Source: a virus. Taken from it: DNA of 22,798 nt. Location of the stretch: positions 1 to 22,798 of the IMG/VR virus record IMGVR_UViG_3300028393_000356, one strand, 5' to 3'. The notes under the pieces were generated by a model that saw only the letters and a program-made list of their open reading frames with translations, had not been told where the DNA came from and searched no databases. The position numbers and the translations under genes were made by a program. Shown here one piece after another: positions 1 through 7,034 of this stretch. The number at the start of each line of letters is the position of its first letter. Within the stretch, counting starts at the first letter, position 1.

Positions 1-502
1 AGTCGTGGTCGTCGATGCCAGTTCCATCGCCCCTGCCTCGACCGCCGCCCTCGTCCTGATCTTGCTTCAACAAGTTGTACACCTGTGCGCTGTCCATACC
101 ACGAAACTGTGGATCTACCAGCCCGACCTCGGGCATGACGGCGAACCCGTCCTTGTTGTCGTCAGTCAGCTTGATGTTGATCACGTAGTCACATGCTTGG
201 TTGGCAAGCCTTGCATCCTCATCGTACAGATGACGCCATGTAGTCAGGTGTCTGTACAACTTGTGATAGCACTCGTGCAGCACAAGGAACCGCAACTCTG
301 CATCAGTCAGGGATTCAATGAACTTACGACCATACAACTCGTCACGCCCATTAGTGCATGCGGTTGGTACTTTGTCGTCCACCGAACGTTTACCGATCAT
401 CAACACACCAGCAAGGGCGACATACTTGGGCGAACCCATGATGTCAACCACCGCTTTACTCAGCCGCTGTTCAGCGGTCAACTCTTTACCTATCATTAAC
501 AT
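1..502 (-). CDS. DUF2201/vWA-type putative metallopeptidase-like protein, partial (C-terminus outside window)
   Basis: The reading frame has no stop before the left edge, so 167 N-terminal residues are visible. It contains LVLHECYHKL with an HExxH motif at residues 76-80, followed by NQACDYVIN at about 101-109. This pair matches the N-terminal putative metallopeptidase domain (DUF2201 type) that usually precedes a von Willebrand A domain. An acidic Gly-rich stretch (about 149-166) starts where such proteins have a linker; the vWA half would lie beyond position 1. The start at 502 is chosen because AGGAG (513-509) is 6 nt upstream; the nearer ATG at 507 reads into a stop after three codons. 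The upstream 56-aa gene stops at 504, one base before this start, so the two are probably coupled. Such proteins are commonly paired with MoxR AAA+ ATPases, and one lies two genes upstream. Whether the HExxH is catalytic is unknown. Confidence 0.75.
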   Translation of the reverse strand, partial: MLMIGKELTAEQRLSKAVVDIMGSPKYVALAGVLMIGKRSVDDKVPTACTNGRDELYGRKFIESLTDAELRFLVLHECYHKLYRHLTTWRHLYDEDARLANQACDYVINIKLTDDNKDGFAVMPEVGLVDPQFRGMDSAQVYNLLKQDQDEGGGRGRGDGTGIDDHD

Positions 503-503
503 T

Positions 504-674
504 TCATTCTCCTGTTATTTCTTCGACATCGTAGGCTTGGCACTCGCTTGAGTACGTCACCTTGCTTTGGTCAAATGATTCATACATCTTCATCTCTGCC
601 TCATCTTGCGTTTCGGCTTCGACTTCGACCTCTTGGGTGTATGACACCACCACTGTGCCTCTCCATCGTTTCAT
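504..674 (-). CDS. Small acidic conserved-looking phage protein, 56 aa
   Basis: A 56-aa ORF reading MKRWRGTVVVSYTQEVEVEA and continuing to a stop at 506-504. AGGA lies 7 nt upstream of the ATG at 674, and a copy of the 17-bp palindrome (690-706) ends 15 nt upstream. The predicted fold is a beta strand pair followed by an acidic helix (EVEVEAETQDEAE), a pattern seen in many small phage proteins of unknown role. It fills the gap between the AAA+ ATPase gene and the DUF2201/vWA gene exactly, with one base left before the next start, which argues that it is real. It has no cysteine pair, signal peptide or membrane segment. Function is unknown; location suggests it belongs with the ATPase/vWA pair. 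Confidence 0.7.
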   Translation of the reverse strand: MKRWRGTVVVSYTQEVEVEAETQDEAEMKMYESFDQSKVTYSSECQAYDVEEITGE

Positions 675-689
675 GTTGTGTCCTTTCTT

Positions 690-706
690 GTTAGGGATTC
701 CCTAAC
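690..706. repeat. 17-bp palindrome copy 1 (GTTAGGGATTCCCTAAC)
   Basis: Perfect 8-1-8 inverted repeat GTTAGGGA-N-TCCCTAAC. It lies between the ATPase stop codon (707-709) and the Shine-Dalgarno of the 56-aa gene, 15 nt before its ATG. Confidence 0.95.
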
Positions 707-1798
707 TTATTTCTTGTCCGCCGCGAACATGTAGTTGTTCTGCATCGCCCACGCTGTGAACTTCTTGTTGGTCATGACCACAGACTGCTTGGCGTACTTG
801 GGGCTACGCACACCGTTGGCGAACATACCCTGTGCTTCCTTGTCAAGGCGCATCATGTAGTCCATCCATGCATCAATCCAATCACGGTCGATCACAGACA
901 ACGCACGGTACACAACCATACATACAGCCGCCGCACTGTCCGGCACCTTGGCATTCATCGGGTCTTTCTTGATTGACTCAAGGCTAGGCAACTGATCAGC
1001 CAACTTCACGAACGCCATCAGATCCATAGCACCGCGCTCACCGATAGTGCCCATTAACAAGGCAGTAAGGGTTTGGTCGTCCACACCCTCGCGCCCCTTC
1101 AGCCAATCCGATGCGGCTTCGAGAGAACGTGGCGTAACAAACGCTGTGCGCTGTTGCTTGGGGTGGTAGATGTAGGGATTCTGTTCAGGGTCTTTCACGT
1201 CCTCGAACGAATGAAACAACTGAGGGTTGTCCTTGCACCAGCCCAGCAATGTGTGATCAACACCATTGTTCACACCCCACTCGATCCACTCCATGTTTGA
1301 CGGCTTGCGGCTTGTGACCACAGTCATACGGTTACGTGCATGTGGAGGGAGCAGGTCGCCCACGCCCTCTGCCCCTAAGTTAGTGGTCGCAAACACAACA
1401 GACTTATCTGATAGTGTGTATCCACCCATCTTGCGTTCGAGGAGCAGTCGGAGCATGGCATTCTTCACGGCGGGGTTAGCCTTGCCGTACTCGTCCACCA
1501 TCAAGATGATGTCTTTCCCTAAGTGCAAGCCGAGTTCTTCGTTGGTCACGTAGCGTACGTACCCTTGCTCGTCGATAGTCTGCAACTGAGGGATAGTGAT
1601 GTCGCCCAAGTCCTTGGTCGTGCAGTCAAAGTAGCACATCGTATGGTTAGGCAGGGCTTTGCCCAAGGTCTTGAGCAGAGATGATTTACCTGTACCCATG
1701 TGACCCTGCACCAGTATGGTGCGCTTGTTGCCGCCGATGCGGATGGCAGTCTCGATTTGGTCGAGGCCGAGTGCGTACATTGCGATAGCTTGATTCAT
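707..1798 (-). CDS. MoxR-type AAA+ ATPase
   Basis: A 363-aa AAA+ ATPase of the MoxR/CobS/CbbQ group. Visible motifs: Walker A GHMGTGKS (32-39), Walker B ILMVDE (98-103), sensor 1 ATTN (137-140), and an ARNR motif (154-157) that could supply the arginine finger. The helical lid follows from about residue 200. MoxR-type ATPases form hexameric rings that remodel partners, often a vWA protein; a DUF2201/vWA-type gene sits two genes downstream on the same strand, with a DUF3150-like gene directly upstream. The start at 1798 has only a weak ribosome site (GGA, 10 nt upstream), because a (TTAAC)n expansion lies where neighbours have AAGGAG. Whether it acts on host targets, replication or lysis cannot be read from the sequence. 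Fold and ATPase assignment are secure; the biological role is not. Confidence 0.9.
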   Translation of the reverse strand: MNQAIAMYALGLDQIETAIRIGGNKRTILVQGHMGTGKSSLLKTLGKALPNHTMCYFDCTTKDLGDITIPQLQTIDEQGYVRYVTNEELGLHLGKDIILMVDEYGKANPAVKNAMLRLLLERKMGGYTLSDKSVVFATTNLGAEGVGDLLPPHARNRMTVVTSRKPSNMEWIEWGVNNGVDHTLLGWCKDNPQLFHSFEDVKDPEQNPYIYHPKQQRTAFVTPRSLEAASDWLKGREGVDDQTLTALLMGTIGERGAMDLMAFVKLADQLPSLESIKKDPMNAKVPDSAAAVCMVVYRALSVIDRDWIDAWMDYMMRLDKEAQGMFANGVRSPKYAKQSVVMTNKKFTAWAMQNNYMFAADKK

Positions 1799-1810
1799 GA
1801 TGTTTGTTCC

Positions 1811-1835
1811 AGTTAAGTTAAGTTAAGTTAAGTTA
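1811..1835. repeat. Pentanucleotide tandem repeat (AGTTA)x5
   Basis: Five perfect copies of AGTTA (TTAAC-type on the coding strand). The last copy overlaps the first bases of the palindrome at 1832, so the array looks like slippage expansion of the palindrome's terminal half. It separates palindrome and start codon by 33 nt instead of the usual 15-18. Confidence 0.95.
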
Positions 1836-1848
1836 GGGATTCCCTAAC
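1832..1848. repeat. 17-bp palindrome copy 2 (GTTAGGGATTCCCTAAC)
   Basis: Identical to copy 1. It lies in the gap between the stop of the DUF3150-like gene (1854-1852) and the ATPase start (1798). Confidence 0.95.
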
Positions 1849-1851
1849 AAG

Positions 1852-2751
1852 TTACCAGCCCAATGAGGGCAGGGTGTCGATAGTCTTACGCACCTCGTTC
1901 ACCTTGCGGCGAGTTTCAGCGCGCAGATATGAGTCCTCACGCAGAGCGTCAGGTGTTATGCCACGCATGGCATCGTCCAAGTCACGTTGTGCCTGAGCCA
2001 TTGTCGCGTCGCCTGTCACGTTGCATGCACCGAGCAGCTCGATCATGTCGTGCACGTTAGACACCAATGAATCACGAAACACCTTCTTTGTCGGGCCGTC
2101 AGCGTAGTCGAGGCGCTCTGACATCTTTGTCAGCGCATCATGTGCCCGTTTCCACACGTCACCCATCGCGGCTTGTAGCTGTTGGGTGTAGTAGCCCTCG
2201 TACTGAGAGCGCAGGGCTTGCTCAGTCTCGTTGCCGATACTCACCCGCCAATCACCTGCATCAGGCAAGGGCATGTAGTTCATCTTGAACCTGAACTTAG
2301 ATGTCAGGCTGTCAGCCGTGGGGTACTCGTCAGCATTAAACAATGCGCCGAGCTTGAGTTGTGCGTCCTGCACTTCCCATGAGTACGCATCGAGGAACAC
2401 ATCGACGAGTCGCTTGTATTCAGTCTCAAGCGCGGTCATTTCTTGGTGGTACTTGAAGTATTGTGTCGTCGGTAGCAGACGTAAGCCGGTATCGCTCCAT
2501 GGCATGGTGCATGCATAGTGCACATTACGTGCGTTAGCCGTGAACTTCTGCACCGCGTCTAGTTCGGCGCAATCACCTAGGAGTTTCTTGCTTACATTAG
2601 CCACACCCTTATGGGCGTTGTTCTGTGACGTGACGTCTTGCGATGCACGTTTGTCGAGCTTGCGCCCTGTCCACACGCCAATAGAAAGTTCAACCAGCAT
2701 TGCGGCGGTTGAGATGGATGGCACAGATGTGCCTGTCGTTGCGTTTGTCAT
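1852..2751 (-). CDS. DUF3150-like phage protein
   Basis: A 299-aa protein starting MTNATTGTSVP, followed by ELSIGVWTGRKLDKRASQDV (about 20-39), which resembles the N-terminus of DUF3150 family proteins. The rest is mostly helical with conserved-looking aromatic stretches and a charged C-terminal helix. DUF3150 genes in phages and bacteria are often next to MoxR-type ATPase and vWA genes, the context here. The start at 2751 is preferred over the longer open frame reaching 2973: AAGGA is about 8 nt upstream, the palindrome lies just before that, and the extension would run back through the 5' stem-loop and the promoter. It is the first gene of an operon driven from the promoter at 2833-2861. 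Biochemical function is unknown. Confidence 0.75.
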   Translation of the reverse strand: MTNATTGTSVPSISTAAMLVELSIGVWTGRKLDKRASQDVTSQNNAHKGVANVSKKLLGDCAELDAVQKFTANARNVHYACTMPWSDTGLRLLPTTQYFKYHQEMTALETEYKRLVDVFLDAYSWEVQDAQLKLGALFNADEYPTADSLTSKFRFKMNYMPLPDAGDWRVSIGNETEQALRSQYEGYYTQQLQAAMGDVWKRAHDALTKMSERLDYADGPTKKVFRDSLVSNVHDMIELLGACNVTGDATMAQAQRDLDDAMRGITPDALREDSYLRAETRRKVNEVRKTIDTLPSLGW

Positions 2752-2767
2752 TTCAGTTTCCTTGTTT

Positions 2768-2784
2768 GTTAGGGATTCCCTAAC
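2768..2784. repeat. 17-bp palindrome copy 3 (GTTAGGGATTCCCTAAC)
   Basis: Perfect copy, 16 nt upstream of the DUF3150-like start. On the coding strand it is followed by AAACAAGGAA, nearly the same as after copy 4, so palindrome and ribosome site look like one module. Confidence 0.95.
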
Positions 2785-2800
2785 TGGGTTTGGTTTGTTT

Positions 2801-2826
2801 ATCGACTGAGCGAATTCCCAGTCGAT
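2801..2826 (-). promoter_or_regulatory. Stem-loop at the predicted 5' end of the DUF3150/ATPase transcript
   Basis: Perfect 8-bp stem (2801-2808 with 2819-2826) around a 10-nt loop that reads GGAATTCGCT on the minus strand. The outer base (2826) coincides with the +1 predicted from the promoter at 2833-2861. The loop core GAATTCG recurs in the stem-loop at 3571-3596, whose stem is different. Confidence 0.75.
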
Positions 2827-2832
2827 GGTTGT

Positions 2833-2861
2833 ATTATGACATACTATGTCATGTTTGTCAA
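2833..2861 (-). promoter_or_regulatory. Sigma70-like promoter for the DUF3150/MoxR operon
   Basis: Minus-strand TTGACA (2861-2856), 17-bp spacer, CATAAT (2838-2833). GTATCAAACAC abuts the -35 box, and an AACTATC heptamer (2894-2888) lies exactly 26 bp upstream of it. The same arrangement is present at 3604-3632 and 5919-5947. Confidence 0.85.
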
Positions 2862-2893
2862 GTGTTTGATACCTTACGGCATCTTCTGATAGT

Positions 2894-3061
2894 TTAGAAT
2901 TGTCTGCACTCGTATGTATGCACCTCCCCTCTGTAGTCTGTATATGTCTCGCCACATCCGCTTGCCCACTCAAGTATGAATATCAACGCAAGAGCTAGCA
3001 AGGCTACACCTATGACGGCTTGGCCCAAGGCATGGGCTAGTTTTTTAATCAGTCTGATCAT
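2894..3061 (-). CDS. Small single-pass membrane protein, 55 aa
   Basis: An ORF of 55 aa starting MIRLIKKLAHALGQAVIGVA. A positively charged N-terminus precedes one hydrophobic segment at about 12-31, then a short polar C-terminal tail with cysteines at 36 and 52. The positive-inside rule predicts cytoplasmic N-terminus and periplasmic tail; ASGC at 33-36 is a weak lipobox-like sequence. The ATG at 3061 overlaps the TGA of the zinc-ribbon gene (3060-3058) as ATGA, so translation is probably coupled. The stop at 2896-2894 shares a base with the AACTATC element of the next promoter. Single-pass small phage proteins include lysis regulators, spanins and superinfection-exclusion factors, but nothing here distinguishes among them. 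Confidence 0.6.
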   Translation of the reverse strand: MIRLIKKLAHALGQAVIGVALLALALIFILEWASGCGETYTDYRGEVHTYECRQF

Positions 3062-3267
3062 GTTGTCCTCTTAGGGTTAAGTTGTTTGAGCATGCTTGCA
3101 TCGGTAAACAGCATATAGTTTGACTTGTTCATTGGGGCGATGGTGTGTCGCACCTTCTTGGCGGCTTTCTCTCCGCAGTCAAGGCATGTGGTGTATCCGA
3201 TTTGGGTACGGGCGGCGGCTACACGCTGGGCATAACAGCATGTACATATGGGTCGTGTGTACTTCAT
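3058..3267 (-). CDS. Small zinc-ribbon protein, 69 aa
   Basis: A 69-aa protein starting MKYTRPICTCCYAQRV. It has two Cys-x2-Cys pairs (CTCC near residue 8 and CLDC near residue 27), the pattern of a four-cysteine zinc ribbon, followed by a basic stretch (EKAAKKVRH). The ATG at 3267 is preferred because it lies one base after the preceding gene's stop (3271-3269); an in-frame GTG at 3285 would extend it by 6 residues into the upstream gene. Its own stop overlaps the next start. Small zinc ribbons of this kind often bind nucleic acid or RNA polymerase, but no specific function is supported here. Confidence 0.65.
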   Translation of the reverse strand: MKYTRPICTCCYAQRVAAARTQIGYTTCLDCGEKAAKKVRHTIAPMNKSNYMLFTDASMLKQLNPKRTT

Positions 3268-3268
3268 A

Positions 3269-3511
3269 TTAGTCGTTCTCTGCACCGAGATAACACCCTC
3301 GGAAAAAGTGCTGTGCGCCCATTGCGCGGATCGTACCTGTGGCTATGCGTCTAGGCTTACGCCCAGCTTTCCACACACTACGTTCAAACCTCAAACCAGC
3401 CACACTATCTGAGCTTATGGGTCTAGGTTCACGCCGCTTGGTGCTTGAGCTAAATACATGTTGCACGGTCTTGCGTTGACCTGCGCCCCACTGGTAATTC
3501 TTCGTTTTCAT
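3269..3511 (-). CDS. Small basic protein of unknown function, 80 aa
   Basis: An 80-aa, strongly basic protein (MKTKNYQWGAGQRKTVQHVF at the start, then several Arg/Lys clusters such as TKRREPRP and WKAGRKPRRI). AGGAGA stands 4 nt upstream of the ATG at 3511, and palindrome copy 4 ends 15 nt upstream, the same layout as at other left-arm genes. It is the first gene of the operon driven by the promoter at 3604-3632 and is followed one base later by the zinc-ribbon gene. I do not recognise a family. The charge suggests nucleic-acid binding, which is inference only. Confidence 0.65.
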   Translation of the reverse strand: MKTKNYQWGAGQRKTVQHVFSSSTKRREPRPISSDSVAGLRFERSVWKAGRKPRRIATGTIRAMGAQHFFRGCYLGAEND

Positions 3512-3526
3512 ACGTTCTCCTTGTTT

Positions 3527-3543
3527 GTTAGGGAATCCCTAAC
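3527..3543. repeat. 17-bp palindrome copy 4 (GTTAGGGAATCCCTAAC)
   Basis: Perfect arms with A at the centre in plus orientation. It is 15 nt upstream of the ATG at 3511 and followed on the coding strand by AAACAAGGAG. Confidence 0.95.
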
Positions 3544-3570
3544 AGGGTTAAGCCTTGCGGCTGGTTGTTT

Positions 3571-3596
3571 GTTGAATAGACGAATTCCTACTCAAC
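3571..3596 (-). promoter_or_regulatory. Stem-loop at the predicted 5' end of the 3511-2894 operon transcript
   Basis: Nine-pair stem (3571-3579 with 3588-3596, one G-U wobble) with loop GAATTCGT on the minus strand. It begins one base after the predicted +1 (3597). The stem sequence is unrelated to that at 2801-2826, yet size, position and loop core are the same. Confidence 0.75.
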
Positions 3597-3603
3597 AGCC
3601 TAT

Positions 3604-3632
3604 ACTATAACATAGTATGCTACGTTTGTCAA
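3604..3632 (-). promoter_or_regulatory. Sigma70-like promoter for the small-protein operon (3511-2894)
   Basis: Minus-strand TTGACA (3632-3627), 17-bp spacer, TATAGT (3609-3604). GTGTCAAACAC abuts the -35 box, and AACTATC (3665-3659) lies 26 bp upstream, overlapping the 3' end of the HNH-like gene. Confidence 0.85.
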
Positions 3633-3653
3633 GTGTTTGACACCTTCTGATAC

Positions 3654-4136
3654 TTATTGATAGTTGAAGTAATCGTGCTCGCCGCCGCTTGAGGAACTGG
3701 TATCTACACCATGGCGCCTTTTGTCGTCGTCGTTCATCACTGCCAATAGATGTTTTGGTATCAATGCACCGTCCTTGGATTCAACGTAGTGCTGCTTCAA
3801 GCTTATTCGACCATCGTCATCTATGATGGCATCTACCCTCTTGGCGTGGTTCTCCCATTGTGGGTGTACGTTTGTGGCTTTGAGGTTTTCGATGCGGGTG
3901 TTGGTGCGGTCACCGTCCACGAACTTGATGAACCTAGGGTTTGCATTGTCAGGGTTGTGCCATGCCCACACTAGGCGATGCATGAGATATGTGCTACCCC
4001 CCATCTGCCATTGCTTAGAGTTGATACGTTTGGCGGCACGTTCGCCTAGGGGTTTAAGTTTGAGGGCTCCGGTCGCTGAGTCGTAAGTGAATGCAATGCG
4101 GACTAAGGTCGGGTTGATGGGTACTGCTTTTGGCAT
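3654..4136 (-). CDS. HNH-type endonuclease-like protein, probably degenerate
   Basis: A 160-aa protein with the layout of the HNH_3/AP2-associated group: YLMHRLVWAWH (50-60), then FVDGDRTNTRIENLKATN (72-89). The first His (53) and the final Asn (84) are present, but the central position normally reads VDHxNGD and here reads KFVDGD, so the second catalytic His is missing. It may be an inactive homing-type nuclease or a DNA-binding derivative. AGGAG lies 5 nt upstream of the ATG at 4136, preceded by palindrome copy 5. The C-terminus is a low-complexity Ser tail plus GGEHDYFNYQ, whose DNA (3674-3704) matches the repeat cassettes at 4756-4786 and 4910-4940. No clear promoter is visible upstream. 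Confidence 0.7.
   Translation of the reverse strand: MPKAVPINPTLVRIAFTYDSATGALKLKPLGERAAKRINSKQWQMGGSTYLMHRLVWAWHNPDNANPRFIKFVDGDRTNTRIENLKATNVHPQWENHAKRVDAIIDDDGRISLKQHYVESKDGALIPKHLLAVMNDDDKRRHGVDTSSSSGGEHDYFNYQ
3674..3704. repeat. Segment of the HNH-like gene shared with the upstream repeat cassettes
   Basis: These 31 bp match 4756-4786 at 27 positions by hand alignment, including the identical run AGGAACTGGTATC. The HNH frame uses TCA (Ser) where cassette copy A has TAA and copy D has TGA. Confidence 0.75.
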
Positions 4137-4154
4137 GGTGGCTCCTTGGTTGGT

Positions 4155-4171
4155 GTTAGGGAATCCCTAAC
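4155..4171. repeat. 17-bp palindrome copy 5 (GTTAGGGAATCCCTAAC)
   Basis: Perfect copy, 18 nt upstream of the HNH-like start. Its last base begins a CAGGTAACTG decamer (4171-4180) that recurs in the inverted repeat at 4331-4385. Confidence 0.95.
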
Positions 4172-4213
4172 AGGTAACTGAATTGTACGTTTTTAATTGG
4201 GGTTTGTATTATC

Positions 4214-4243
4214 AATGTTCTTGAATGTTCTTGAATGTTCTTT
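4214..4243. repeat. Helically phased 10-bp direct repeat (AATGTTCTTG)
   Basis: Two perfect tandem copies (4214-4223, 4224-4233) and a third slightly altered copy (from 4234, AATGTTCTTT). The 10-bp period places each copy on the same face of the helix. Confidence 0.85.
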
Positions 4244-4330
4244 GTTTGGGGTTGTGCAAGTCCTTGATTCATATAGTAAAGTACGATAGTTCCGAAAGTT
4301 CGTTGTATTTTGGATACACCCTGTCTAGAA

Positions 4331-4385
4331 GTGTCCAGTTACCTGCGAACTTTACCTGAAACTAGCTAAACAGGTAATTGGACAC
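4331..4385. repeat. 15-bp inverted repeat with a 25-nt loop
   Basis: Left arm GTGTCCAGTTACCTG (4331-4345) and right arm CAGGTAATTGGACAC (4371-4385) match at 14 of 15 positions. The inner decamer CAGGTAAyTG also occurs at 4171-4180. The loop contains one CGAACTTTA iteron (4346). Confidence 0.85.
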
Positions 4386-4599
4386 CCTCAGACGCTGGGA
4401 CTCTTTTTCACTAAAAACGAACTTTAATACAAATGATAAGAATAGATAAGAATAGATAAAATATGATAGGTATAAAACTTAAGGGATTGCAAAGCTCCTG
4501 CACAATCTAATGCAAAACTATAAAGTACGTGCGCACAAGAACTTTATGGAACTTCTTAGCTAGCGAAAAGAACTTTATAGGCCAAAAAACGAACTTTAT
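4346..4599. repeat. Iteron family 1: (C/A)GAACTTTA, five copies
   Basis: Copies start at 4346, 4418, 4538, 4569 and 4590, all in plus orientation. A partial copy in the other orientation (AAAGTTCG) lies at 4295-4302. Spacing is irregular. Confidence 0.75.
4433..4469. repeat. AT-rich GATAAGAATA-type tandem repeats, candidate unwinding element
   Basis: The stretch reads as successive roughly 10-bp units GATAAGAATA, GATAAGAATA, GATAAAATAT, GATAGG. It is almost free of G-C pairs and lies inside the iteron cluster. Confidence 0.65.
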
Positions 4600-4630
4600 C
4601 CAAACTATATTTTCGCAGCCATTTAAATAA

Positions 4631-4723
4631 AACGAACAGTACAAGCAGACTAAAAACGAACATTAGAACATTGTGTAGAACGAACAGTATGAGCAGACTA
4701 GAAACGAACAGTACGAACAGTAC
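4631..4723. repeat. Iteron family 2: CGAACAGTA, four copies, within a 32-bp direct repeat
   Basis: Copies start at 4633, 4681, 4705 and 4714; the last two are tandem at a 9-bp step. Around them, about 32 bp at 4631-4662 and 4679-4710 repeat nearly identically at a 48-bp interval (AACGAACAGTA..GCAGACTA..AAACGAACA). Confidence 0.8.
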
Positions 4724-4735
4724 GAACTCGCCGCC

Positions 4736-4811
4736 AAGTCAGTCGTGCCTCCTTCCGCGCTCATCGCCGCTTTAGGAACTGGTATCAGTTGTTAGGGAAT
4801 CCCTAACAAAG
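4736..4811. repeat. Repeat cassette copy A (76 bp, ends in a palindrome)
   Basis: Runs from AAGTCAGTCGTGCCTCCTTC through the AGGAACTGGTATC segment to palindrome copy 6 and CAAAG. Copy D (4890-4965) is the same length with a few substitutions. Confidence 0.85.
4791..4807. repeat. 17-bp palindrome copy 6 (GTTAGGGAATCCCTAAC)
   Basis: Perfect copy at the end of cassette A. No gene start is close by on either strand. Confidence 0.95.
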
Positions 4812-4835
4812 CTGGCGCTCAACGTGCTCGCCACT

Positions 4836-4889
4836 AAGTCAGTCGTGCTCATCGCTAAGTCAGTCGTGCCTCCTTCCGCGCTCATCGCT
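4836..4889. repeat. Repeat cassette copies B and C (truncated units)
   Basis: Copy B (4836-4856) begins AAGTCAGTCGTG and lacks the CCTCCTTCCGCG part. Copy C (4857-4889) is a complete 33-bp unit directly abutting copy D. Neither carries a palindrome. Confidence 0.8.
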
Positions 4890-4965
4890 AAGTCAGTCGT
4901 GCCTCCTTCCGCGCTCAACGCTGCTTCAGGAACTGGTATCAGTTGTTAGGGAGTCCCTAACAAAG
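4890..4965. repeat. Repeat cassette copy D (76 bp, ends in a palindrome)
   Basis: Near-identical to cassette A, including the AGGAACTGGTATCAGTT segment and the flanking CAAAG. The first 33 bp form a tandem pair with copy C. Confidence 0.85.
4945..4961. repeat. 17-bp palindrome copy 7 (GTTAGGGAGTCCCTAAC)
   Basis: Both 8-bp arms are perfect and only the central base (G) differs from the other copies, so the arms are under stronger constraint than the centre. Confidence 0.95.
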
Positions 4966-5014
4966 TTGTGGTGTGTGGTGGCGTGTATGTGGTGGGTGCA
5001 GAAAAGTACAGACG

Positions 5015-5045
5015 AAAAAAAAGCCCCGACCAAAAGGTCAGGGCT
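5015..5045 (-). terminator. Strong rho-independent terminator ending the 5856-5060 transcript
   Basis: On the minus strand AGCCCTGACC-TTTT-GGTCGGGGCT forms a 10-bp stem (one G-U wobble) with a 4-nt loop, followed by eight T. It stops the leftward transcript before the candidate origin. Confidence 0.9.
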
Positions 5046-5059
5046 CGAATTAAAAAGTG

Positions 5060-5194
5060 TTAACTCCTTGGTGATATGGTGCAGGGGTAAGACCTGCGAC
5101 CTTCAATGAAACTAAATGGGATACGTGAGTACTGCGCAATGCGCAATGCTTTGCCAACGTGAACCCTCCAAATGTTTACTTTGCCTGTTGTCAT
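5060..5194 (-). CDS. Possible small basic protein, 44 aa
   Basis: The frame starts MTTGKVNIWRVHVGKALRIA two bases after the stop of the 30-aa ORF and ends 15 bp before the terminator stem. GGGGG 5 nt upstream of the ATG could act as a weak ribosome site. An overlapping alternative uses a TTG start preceded by GGAGG and reads 35 aa, ending immediately before the terminator. The two frames cannot be separated by eye; only one or neither may be made. No family is recognised. Confidence 0.3.
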   Translation of the reverse strand: MTTGKVNIWRVHVGKALRIAQYSRIPFSFIEGRRSYPCTISPRS

Positions 5195-5195
5195 A

Positions 5196-5288
5196 TCAAC
5201 CCCCGAAATATCTGATCCAGCTTGGTAAGCTGACCAACAACGAAACCGAAAATGTTGCGAGAACTAAAACCCATTCAAAACCGTCCAT
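5196..5288 (-). CDS. Tiny putative membrane peptide, 30 aa
   Basis: The peptide begins MDGFEWVLVLATFSVSLLVS and ends in a short polar tail (SWIRYFGG). Residues 6-21 form one hydrophobic segment. A full AAGGAG stands at an ideal 6-nt spacing before the ATG at 5288, the main reason to call it. It lies downstream of the 173-aa gene on the same transcript, after a GC-rich hairpin, and before the terminator. Function is unknown. Confidence 0.5.
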   Translation of the reverse strand: MDGFEWVLVLATFSVSLLVSLPSWIRYFGG

Positions 5289-5305
5289 GTCTATCTCCTT
5301 TAAAT

Positions 5306-5323
5306 GCCCCCCTTTCGGGGGGC
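5306..5323 (-). promoter_or_regulatory. GC-rich intercistronic hairpin with GAAA tetraloop
   Basis: Stem GCCCCCC/GGGGGGC (7 bp) with loop GAAA on the minus strand, between the stop of the 173-aa gene and the AAGGAG of the 30-aa ORF. No T-tract follows in either direction, so it is more likely an RNA-stability or processing element than a terminator. Confidence 0.6.
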
Positions 5324-5334
5324 GTGGTTGTTAA

Positions 5335-5856
5335 TTAAGCGTTTGCAGGGATACGAGCCAATGCGTTCTGCAAGTCCTTGATGAATGCAGGCATGTCACG
5401 TACGGTGGTGCTCTCCTTCTTTTGCGCTTGACTTATCATTTCAGCAAGCACCTTGCGCTTGGTTGCCTCCCAGCTTGACTTGTCAGCACCAGCACCATCA
5501 GACTCAGCACCAGCGTTCTCACGCCGTGTCAACGCATTGCGCAAGTCTTTGAGCTTCGAGCCGATTTGCTGTTGCCAATTGCGCTTGGTCTCCTTTTGGT
5601 TTTCATTCAAACCCTTGGTGTCCTTCTTCAACAGCGCTTGCACGCTGGCCGAAAAACCCAACACGATGGCGGCCTTAGCACTGTCATACAGCGCAGAGGG
5701 CTCACCCTTTGCAGGGGCACGCAACATGTCAGCAGTAACACCATCAGCGAACAACCCATCGACCGCTTTGGTCATAGTGTTGCCAGTCTTGATAGTGGCA
5801 GATGTCCACGCGCCGATTGCGTTAACGGTAGCAGTAGATAATTTAATAGAAGCCAT
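5335..5856 (-). CDS. Helical phage protein of unknown function, 173 aa
   Basis: A 173-aa protein beginning MASIKLSTATVNAIGAWTSA. It is Ala/Lys-rich and mostly helical, with a polar linker at about 112-128 (ENAGAESDGAGADKSSW) separating two helical parts. No catalytic motif, signal peptide or membrane segment is visible. AAGGGA precedes the ATG at 5856. It is the first gene of a leftward transcript from the promoter at 5919-5947, with a 5' stem-loop but without the 17-bp palindrome in its leader. Its place next to the divergence point is typical of early-expressed phage genes; this is inference from position only. Confidence 0.75.
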   Translation of the reverse strand: MASIKLSTATVNAIGAWTSATIKTGNTMTKAVDGLFADGVTADMLRAPAKGEPSALYDSAKAAIVLGFSASVQALLKKDTKGLNENQKETKRNWQQQIGSKLKDLRNALTRRENAGAESDGAGADKSSWEATKRKVLAEMISQAQKKESTTVRDMPAFIKDLQNALARIPANA

Positions 5857-5878
5857 TTCAATTCCCTTTCAAGGATTA

Positions 5879-5912
5879 ATCGGCAGACAATCAATACGTT
5901 GTCTGAACCGAT
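5879..5912 (-). promoter_or_regulatory. Stem-loop at the predicted 5' end of the 173-aa gene transcript
   Basis: A 12-pair stem made of ATCGG/CCGAT (5879-5883, 5908-5912) and CAGACAA/TTGTCTG (5884-5890, 5899-5905) with a 2-nt bulge and an 8-nt loop. The outer base 5912 is the +1 predicted from the promoter at 5919-5947. Confidence 0.75.
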
Positions 5913-5918
5913 GGGTGT

Positions 5919-5947
5919 AATGTAACAAAGCACAGCACGTTTGTCTA
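5919..5947 (-). promoter_or_regulatory. Sigma70-like promoter for the 173-aa gene
   Basis: Minus-strand TAGACA (5947-5942), 17-bp spacer, TACATT (5924-5919). GTATCAATACC abuts the -35 box, and AACTATC (5980-5974) lies 26 bp upstream. The boxes are weaker than at the other two sites, but the upstream layout is identical. Confidence 0.75.
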
Positions 5948-5992
5948 GGTATTGATACGTTTAAATAAGATTAGATAGTTGATCCAATAGTT

Positions 5993-6009
5993 GTTAGGGA
6001 TTCCCTAAC
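5993..6009. repeat. 17-bp palindrome copy 8 (GTTAGGGATTCCCTAAC)
   Basis: Perfect copy upstream of the leftward promoter, 12 bp beyond its AACTATC heptamer, and at the edge of the divergence region. Confidence 0.95.
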
Positions 6010-6386
6010 GTGTTGATATGAAATTGGCGGTATGGTCAACCCACCCGTACCCGACCCCCGCCTTATGGGTTAGGAGTCCCTTGGTCGTATAGGTATGCTA
6101 TTCCGCACAAGTAAGCCCCACTCAACGAAATTGGGCTACAAAGACCCATCAATATACGTTTACTCTGCATTTTTATAATGAGGCCCCACCCCCCATAACA
6201 TCTTTTACGTTATATTTAAGACCCACCCCCCTCCTATAATGTAAGTACCCCCGGTAGGGAAGTTTGACATCCTTTAAAAATGATGTACTATTACGCAGTT
6301 GGTGGTGGGTGCTTACTTGGTGTTAGGGACTCCGTTGGGGGTAGGCATCCATTACCGACACTTCGGTCTACAAGGACTTGCGCACA
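6010..6386. other. Non-coding divergence region between left and right arms
   Basis: No convincing gene. It contains C-rich runs (GGCCCCACCCCCC near 6182, GACCCACCCCCC near 6220), two TATAAT hexamers without a good -35 box (6174, 6235), one good rightward promoter (6264-6291), and two imperfect relatives of the palindrome (6069-6084 and 6322-6338). A 5-bp hairpin (6354-6367) stands just before the ribosome site of the first late gene. Confidence 0.7.
6264..6291 (+). promoter_or_regulatory. Rightward sigma70-like promoter for the late genes
   Basis: TTGACA (6264-6269), 16-bp spacer, TACTAT (6286-6291), predicted +1 near 6298, about 90 nt before the first late start. It lacks the AACTATC/GTATCAA elements of the leftward promoters, so it probably has different control. 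Confidence 0.7.
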
Positions 6387-7034
6387 ATGACTATTGAGCT
6401 AACACCCGAATTTGGGGTTGAGATTGTTCCAGATATCCCGTATCTCGATTTGAGAGAACGGGCAGAGGCTGCTTGTCGTTCCATGCTTCTATTAGAAGAA
6501 CATGGGTTAGAAGTGCCAGAACCTTCTGAAGAAGATGCCCAGATTGCAGCCACACTGACAACTGCTTACGCCAGCAACCCCCACAACACAAGCGCTGCGG
6601 TATCAAACGCCCGTGCTTCATCACTTACACCCGCCACACTTTTAAACATTCGCTCATATTTAGATGAGTACGGCAAGGCGGTAGTGACCCATGCTATAGA
6701 AGTGCGGCAGTTGGTAACTAATAGACTATTAGAAGAGTCTCAGAACCCAGACCCAAGAATCCGCATCCGTGCACTAGAACTTTTGGGCAAGCACAGCGAC
6801 GTGGGGCTCTTTACCGACAGGTCAGAAGTGACAATTACCCACCAGTCAACAGACGAATTGAAGGCAAGATTGCGTGCAAAGTTGCAACGCCTTGTCCAAA
6901 AACCCGATATTTCGACGGCAACTGTGGAAATTGGTGGGGACATCATCGACGTAGATGCAGAAATGGGCCTAAAACCCGCGTCAGAACCAGAAACTCCGGC
7001 AGTTTTCGTGCCAGAAGACAGTTTTGATGACTAA
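6387..7034 (+). CDS. terS: Terminase small subunit-like protein
   Basis: A 215-aa acidic protein starting MTIELTPEFGVEIVP, directly upstream of the large terminase and overlapping it by 8 nt. The middle is helical (LNIRSYLDEYGKAVVTHAIE and RIRALELLGKHSDVGLF, about 85-140), resembling terminase small subunits that end in GKHSDVGLF-type helices; the C-terminus is a flexible acidic tail (PASEPETPAVF). Small subunits bind the packaging site and regulate the ATPase/nuclease. The ATG at 6387 has AAGGA 10 nt upstream; the TTG at 6378 is too close to that site. It is the first gene after the rightward promoter. Assignment rests on position, length and helical pattern. Confidence 0.65.
   Translation: MTIELTPEFGVEIVPDIPYLDLRERAEAACRSMLLLEEHGLEVPEPSEEDAQIAATLTTAYASNPHNTSAAVSNARASSLTPATLLNIRSYLDEYGKAVVTHAIEVRQLVTNRLLEESQNPDPRIRIRALELLGKHSDVGLFTDRSEVTITHQSTDELKARLRAKLQRLVQKPDISTATVEIGGDIIDVDAEMGLKPASEPETPAVFVPEDSFDD

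Follow-up and report, generated by a model that had tools for sequence, protein, structure and literature searches.

Covarying stem-loops at predicted transcript starts in an uncultured phage and its relatives

Promoters and leaders of the window

The DNA analysed here, which we call the window, is a 22.8-kb phage fragment (positions 1-22,798 of IMG/VR record IMGVR_UViG_3300028393_000356), and our subject is a set of stem-loops located at the predicted starts (+1) of several of its transcripts. In the left 6 kb, leftward genes encode a protein with a DUF2201-type metallopeptidase domain, a MoxR-like AAA ATPase, a DUF3150-like protein, an HNH nuclease, several small proteins and a 173-residue protein of unknown function, and in the right part rightward genes encode terminase, portal and other proteins. 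A megablast search with the whole window against annotated phages gave no match; the nearest cultured terminases, those of 023Pt_psg01, HTVC027P, HTVC023P and DSL-LC04, are 45-47% identical. These terminases come from Pelagibacter phages of the HTVC023P type and from relatives of freshwater or marine origin, and IMG/VR holds many relatives that are closer than the cultured phages. The product of the small gene behind leader 2 matched nothing in Pfam or PHROGs.

Transcription starts were predicted from -10 boxes, and the designation of transcripts as early is based on their position. P1 and P2 are the top two minus-strand promoter-like sites within positions 1-7000; together with P3 they have a TG ahead of the -10 box and 17-bp spacers, and in P3 orthologues the -35 box reads TTGACA (Table 1). 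In all four leaders of the window, the first paired base is the seventh base after the -10 box (2826, 3597, 5912 and 6298). An original prediction had proposed stem-loops at +1 of three leftward transcripts, whose promoters are of the sigma70 type, and the places and minus-strand orientation of the stem-loops are hereby confirmed; the fourth leader of the same design, running rightward from 6298, was absent from it. The pairing it described is real, but its counts of 8, 9 and 12 pairs are slightly low, as minimum free energy (MFE) folding gives 10, 11 and 12. It had also noted a loop core common to two of the stem-loops; leaders 1 and 2 do have GGAATTCG in common, and conservation of this loop is limited to one leader family.

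The leader 1 hairpin has an MFE of -13.7 kcal/mol (z -5.2 against dinucleotide shuffles), the 10-pair core of the 11-pair leader 2 helix one of -11.1 kcal/mol (z -4.9), and the leader 3 hairpin, with its 2-nucleotide bulge, one of -12.3 kcal/mol (z -3.4 against dinucleotide shuffles). Only about 0.03% of minus-strand positions start a contiguous stem as strong as those of leaders 1 and 2. Leader 3 has a weaker contiguous stem (score 5.5), and the stability of the whole leader is not unusual (z -1.2); its case is built on covariation among orthologues. When whole leaders are folded, the hairpins of leaders 1 and 2 persist and are followed by an A/C-rich stretch, a small hairpin formed by a GTTAGGG palindrome, a Shine-Dalgarno sequence predicted to be unpaired, and the start codon; in leader 3, the Shine-Dalgarno sequence is partly paired in the model.

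We considered intrinsic terminators and rejected them, there being no T-run after the stems. Rfam matches over positions 1-6500 all stayed below the gathering score, and none of them fell on the three leftward leaders. One such match, a resemblance to suhB/mmgR small RNA at 5007-5095 on the minus strand (25.6 bits against a cut-off of 41), probably stems from a strong leftward terminator-like hairpin at 5046-5021.

Table 1. Promoters, leader stem-loops and adjoining genes of the window, with promoter sites of a hairpin-free class in other phages
Feature	Position	Strand	Remarks
Gene downstream of leader 1, DUF3150-like, 299 amino acids	1852..2751	-	E 4e-4, below Pfam cut-off
Leader 1 5'-terminal stem-loop, AUCGACUGGG-AAUUCG-CUCAGUCGAU, 10 pairs	2801..2826	-	Upstream of DUF3150-like gene; fold, covariation
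Promoter P1, TTGACA-17-CATAAT, extended -10	2833..2861	-	11/12 consensus matches; kept in relatives
Small gene downstream of leader 2, 80 amino acids	3269..3511	-	Open reading frame
Leader 2 5'-terminal stem-loop, UGUUGAGUAGG-AAUUCG-UCUAUUCAACA, 11 pairs	3570..3597	-	Fold, covariation
Promoter P2, TTGACA-17-TATAGT, extended -10	3604..3632	-	11/12 consensus matches
Gene downstream of leader 3, 173 amino acids, function unknown	5335..5856	-	Open reading frame
Leader 3 5'-terminal stem-loop, AUCGG UU CAGACAA-CGUAUUGA-UUGUCUG CCGAU, 12 pairs with bulge	5879..5912	-	Fold, covariation
Promoter P3, TAGACA-17-TACATT, extended -10	5919..5947	-	9/12 consensus matches
Promoter P4, rightward, TTGACA-16-TACTAT	6264..6291	+	Promoter-like site
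Leader 4 5'-terminal stem-loop, about 20 pairs, 62 nucleotides	6298..6359	+	Fold; phage comparison
Hairpin-free promoter class	G001:C1:3520, G002:C1:17863, G003:C1:38487, G006:C1:39940, G007:C1:47700

Enrichment, covariation and replacement of the terminal stems

Orthologous leaders were collected upstream of the DUF3150-like gene in relatives anchored by the ATPase gene, with gene position and promoter score as the only criteria. Among 48 distinct leaders obtained in this way, a terminal stem score of 6 or more is reached by 77%, compared with 13% of shuffles, and one of 8 or more by 60%, compared with 1.25% of shuffles. At non-redundant intergenic promoter-like sites of the relatives, the outermost stem bases concentrate at offsets 4-7 after the -10 box (counts 3, 6, 14 and 6), against counts of 0-4 at nearly all other offsets. 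A strict promoter pattern proved too narrow. Among 66 strong promoter-like sites of the window and ten near-complete relatives, a stem scoring at least 8 is found at +1 in 12, as against one about 20 bases downstream. No +1 stem with such a score occurs in lambda, the first 50 kb of T4, HK022, DSL-LC04 or 023Pt_psg01, with lambda, HK022 and DSL-LC04 offering few sites, and the pile-up at +1 was not seen in the scanned parts of the genomes of the three cultured relatives examined. One of these, HTVC023P, has one such stem at +1 and two in its control window. Chance as the source of the +1 stems is rejected by the shuffles, the offset profile and the lambda, T4 and HK022 controls. At one promoter-like site of HTVC023P, a Pelagibacter phage with a cultured host, an 11-pair stem lies near +1 (L258, 13697; TGGTGTTGGTT...AACTAACACCA), which could be a chance occurrence.

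The leader family to which leaders 1 and 2 belong, characterized by a GG-AAUUCG loop, yielded a gapless alignment of 33 distinct 26-nucleotide hairpins from P1 and P2 orthologues and further promoters. In this alignment, 91.5% of 330 cells are paired, double changes occur at 8 of 10 pairs, and 69 cells are doubly changed compared with a shuffle mean of 20; the covariation score is 0.61, with 0.31 for shuffled and at most 0.15 for slid alignments. These counts come from related sequences and do not represent independent events. The loop core GG-A-N-N-UC is nearly invariant while the stems vary. Double changes preserve pairs in three further leader families as well, namely a long type and two families found at P3 orthologues.

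Across all four alignments, the transcript strand has 107 G-U cells and 4 A-C cells. Since the structures of alignments A3, A4 and A5 were derived from energies (RNAalifold), which favours G-U, we repeated the count on 30 sequences picked by promoter and loop only, regardless of pairing, and obtained 41 G-U and 3 A-C. In duplex DNA, a single event reads as a G-T mismatch from one strand and as an A-C mismatch from the other; the excess of G-U therefore means that the transcript strand pairs as RNA. This bears on the idea that the pairing arises as a by-product, either of a DNA operator or of what promoter opening and escape demand of the initially transcribed region. The inverted repeats do lie where a repressor could block transcription, and there is another dyad in a promoter spacer; a shared operator would, however, place the same dyad at the promoters of one phage and show no strand preference, and we find stems that differ between promoters, a strand-specific asymmetry that identifies RNA pairing as the constraint, and long, branched hairpin versions. 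We thus reject a shared DNA operator and regard the by-product explanation as a whole as very improbable. Taken together, the sequence comparisons point to the hairpins being a selected RNA structure. The claim of such selection, made in the original prediction, is strongly supported by differing stems at a fixed +1 position, compensatory changes, tolerance of G-U, and the replacement of stems and loops.

Such replacement is most evident in P3-type leaders, which retain AUCGG/CCGAU-like pairs at +1. Above these pairs, some phages have CAGACAA...UUGUCUG and others a GCGGACA...GCGC element, while the sequence of L055, L094, L203 and L209 is unrelated there. DUF3150 leader hairpins range from about 20 nucleotides to branched forms of about 60. 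At P4, the 62-nucleotide hairpin insert of leader 4 is missing in 15 of 18 phages compared, and L288 and L090 have different, unrelated inserts that are again paired from the seventh base after the -10 box (read by eye from the sequence as TACACT at spacing 18), which suggests repeated gain or loss. By these comparisons, the feature retained through replacement is the paired 5' end, as would be expected under end protection, where nothing else matters.

Some leaders have stems of 14-21 pairs, a length compatible with an RNase III processing site, at which cleavage of the 5' hairpin would set the mature end. Most stems have 8-11 pairs, though, and usual RNase III substrates are longer than this; as a cut at a +1 hairpin would also remove little, we consider this role scarcely probable.

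Palindromes and repeats of the left arm

The 17-bp spacer of P1 (2839-2855) is a perfect palindrome, ATGACATAGTATGTCAT, and related dyads, GTAGCAGACTATGCTAC and TACCATAGTATGGTA, lie between the -35 and -10 boxes of promoters in relatives (e.g. L205 and L175), making these spacer dyads a candidate regulator site. A different 17-bp palindrome, GTTAGGGANTCCCTAAC, occurs in eight copies (690, 1832, 2768, 3527, 4155, 4791, 4945 and 5993; 0.06 expected), all in the left arm, five of them just upstream of leftward start codons and one upstream of P3. Relatives have 4-13 copies of their own version in the same arm and with the same outer letters (GTTATAC..GTATAAC, GTTAGGC..GCCTAAC, GTTAGTG..CACTAAC), and the palindromes resemble clade-specific sites that co-evolve with a protein binding them. 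The non-coding segment 4410-4970 has repeats of the ACGAACAGTA / AAAACGAACTTTA type and includes an 88-nucleotide direct repeat (4727-4814 and 4881-4968) that contains the 17-bp palindrome; repeats of the ACGAACATT type occur in relatives too. It is possibly an origin or regulatory region.

Proposed protection of the 5' end

RppH and 5'-tethered RNase E act on single-stranded 5' ends and work poorly on a terminus enclosed in a helix, and bla mRNA is stabilised by an appended 5' hairpin (PMC3997798). On balance, we lean towards the view that the leaders form ompA/papA-like 5'-terminal stem-loops that would leave no free 5' end for decay of the RppH/RNase E type. We favour it because of the +1 position, the indifference to sequence, the unpaired ribosome-binding region and the lack of T-runs. 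RNA polymerase would start at the predicted +1, and the leftward, probably early, transcripts and one rightward transcript would begin with a stem-loop whose first pair lies at or within one base of this position. The 5' triphosphate end would thereby be base-paired, host RppH and 5'-sensing RNase E (or RNase J), which require a single-stranded 5' end, would be hindered, and longer-lived messages would result. Ribosome loading would stay free in leaders 1 and 2, where both the A/C-rich stretch and the Shine-Dalgarno sequence are predicted to be unpaired. The original prediction had likewise drawn on ompA in suggesting a possible stabilising function for early messages, and this suggestion fits both the leader anatomy, with zero or one unpaired 5' base, and the published work (PMC3997798).

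The expectation that pairing persists in related phages is borne out by the double changes, but some relatives carry changes that break it: the L081 type has a 2x2 internal mismatch, and L144, L145, L152, L154 and L156 belong, with L126 and L157, to the roughly one in seven orthologous leaders that have a good promoter and no terminal stem. The terminal stem-loop is thus prevalent, not universal, and the leaders without it weigh against end protection. So does a recurring promoter class, TTGAATAA...GCCACTATAAT, that also lacks a +1 hairpin; its leader is often about 30 nucleotides long, and it provides an internal contrast to the +1-hairpin promoters. Two further points against end protection are that one family keeps the GG-AAUUCG loop, of which end protection has no need, and that in E. 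coli no more than about 10% of mRNAs respond to inactivation of RppH (PMC3997798).

The conserved loop raises the question of whether the hairpin is bound through GG-AAUUCG by a protein of phage or host origin, either a translation repressor or an antiterminator like N acting on boxB. A near-invariant loop core on varying stems, in 33 distinct hairpins and in two leaders of the window, is what such a protein would call for; leaders 3 and 4 and many leaders of relatives, however, have unrelated loops at the same position, and plain shared ancestry or loop stability may account for the conservation, which leaves this reading rather doubtful. A broader scheme would make the +1 hairpins an undescribed phage RNA control system, in which RNA polymerase or a phage protein recognises the GG-AAUUCG family in put- or nut-like antitermination, the other hairpins are equivalent, and the clade runs its early programme via +1 RNA elements; this we hold to be unlikely.

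Antitermination is also what the put RNA of HK022 brings about in cis and without a phage protein: the hairpin at the nascent 5' end contacts RNA polymerase, which can then read through the terminators of the early operon. Placement at early promoters would allow such a role here, putL too is found immediately behind an early promoter, with pairing that begins at the third base (PMC9378689), and the terminator-like hairpin described above separates leader 3 from the leftward genes that follow. The put element, however, is a conserved sequence of about 70 nucleotides with two adjacent stem-loops, which contact the beta' zinc-binding domain of RNA polymerase (PMC9378689), whereas the hairpins described here are mostly single and variable in sequence: leader 3 has one main hairpin, the shorter hairpins of leaders 1 and 2 are at least 16 nucleotides apart, these two leaders share the loop only, and leaders 3 and 4 are unrelated. 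As hairpin sequence is moreover freely replaced and each promoter has a nearby gene of its own to serve, a put-like function seems quite unlikely; what the two have in common is an early phage transcript that opens with structured RNA.

The computations establish that these hairpins have a set position with respect to the promoter, are stronger than shuffles, covary, tolerate G-U in a strand-specific way, and have had stem and loop replaced among orthologues. Hairpins in phage leaders are known to be under selection in T4, in the operators of genes 43 and 32 and in the structures over gene e; those elements, however, are close to the ribosome-binding site and act as translational repressors (PMC3014915), whereas the present ones are tied to +1 and, in leaders 1 and 2, leave the Shine-Dalgarno sequence unpaired. 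The use of 5'-terminal hairpins as stabilisers is already known, from a few bacterial mRNAs; what appears to be new is the clade-wide use of covarying +1 hairpins, which here appear at several early-type promoters of an uncultured aquatic phage clade. In a literature search largely confined to openly accessible papers, we came across no description of +1 hairpins used throughout a phage clade. If the hairpins protect against 5'-end-dependent decay, phage evolution would have repeatedly found a simple counter to turnover of the RppH/RNase E type, and the leaders would serve, just as they are, to stabilise mRNA; their natural variation, with dozens of stems, gains, losses and replacements, is enough to test the requirements of a 5' cap structure. 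The closest known counterparts are the 5' stem-loops of E. coli ompA and papA (Emory 1992, Bouvet and Belasco 1992, Bricker and Belasco 1999, as cited in PMC3997798), in which a helix at or 1-2 bases from +1 precedes an unpaired leader with the ribosome-binding site and in which pairing matters, not sequence. The four leaders of the window would have this placement relative to the +1 predicted from the -10 box. That pairing counts in them, not sequence, is judged from covariation and stem and loop replacement, and that the ribosome-binding site is unpaired, from the predicted folds of leaders 1 and 2. Our leaders differ in belonging to a phage clade, in serving several promoters per genome, in forming distinct covarying hairpin families, and in that stabilisation is inferred.

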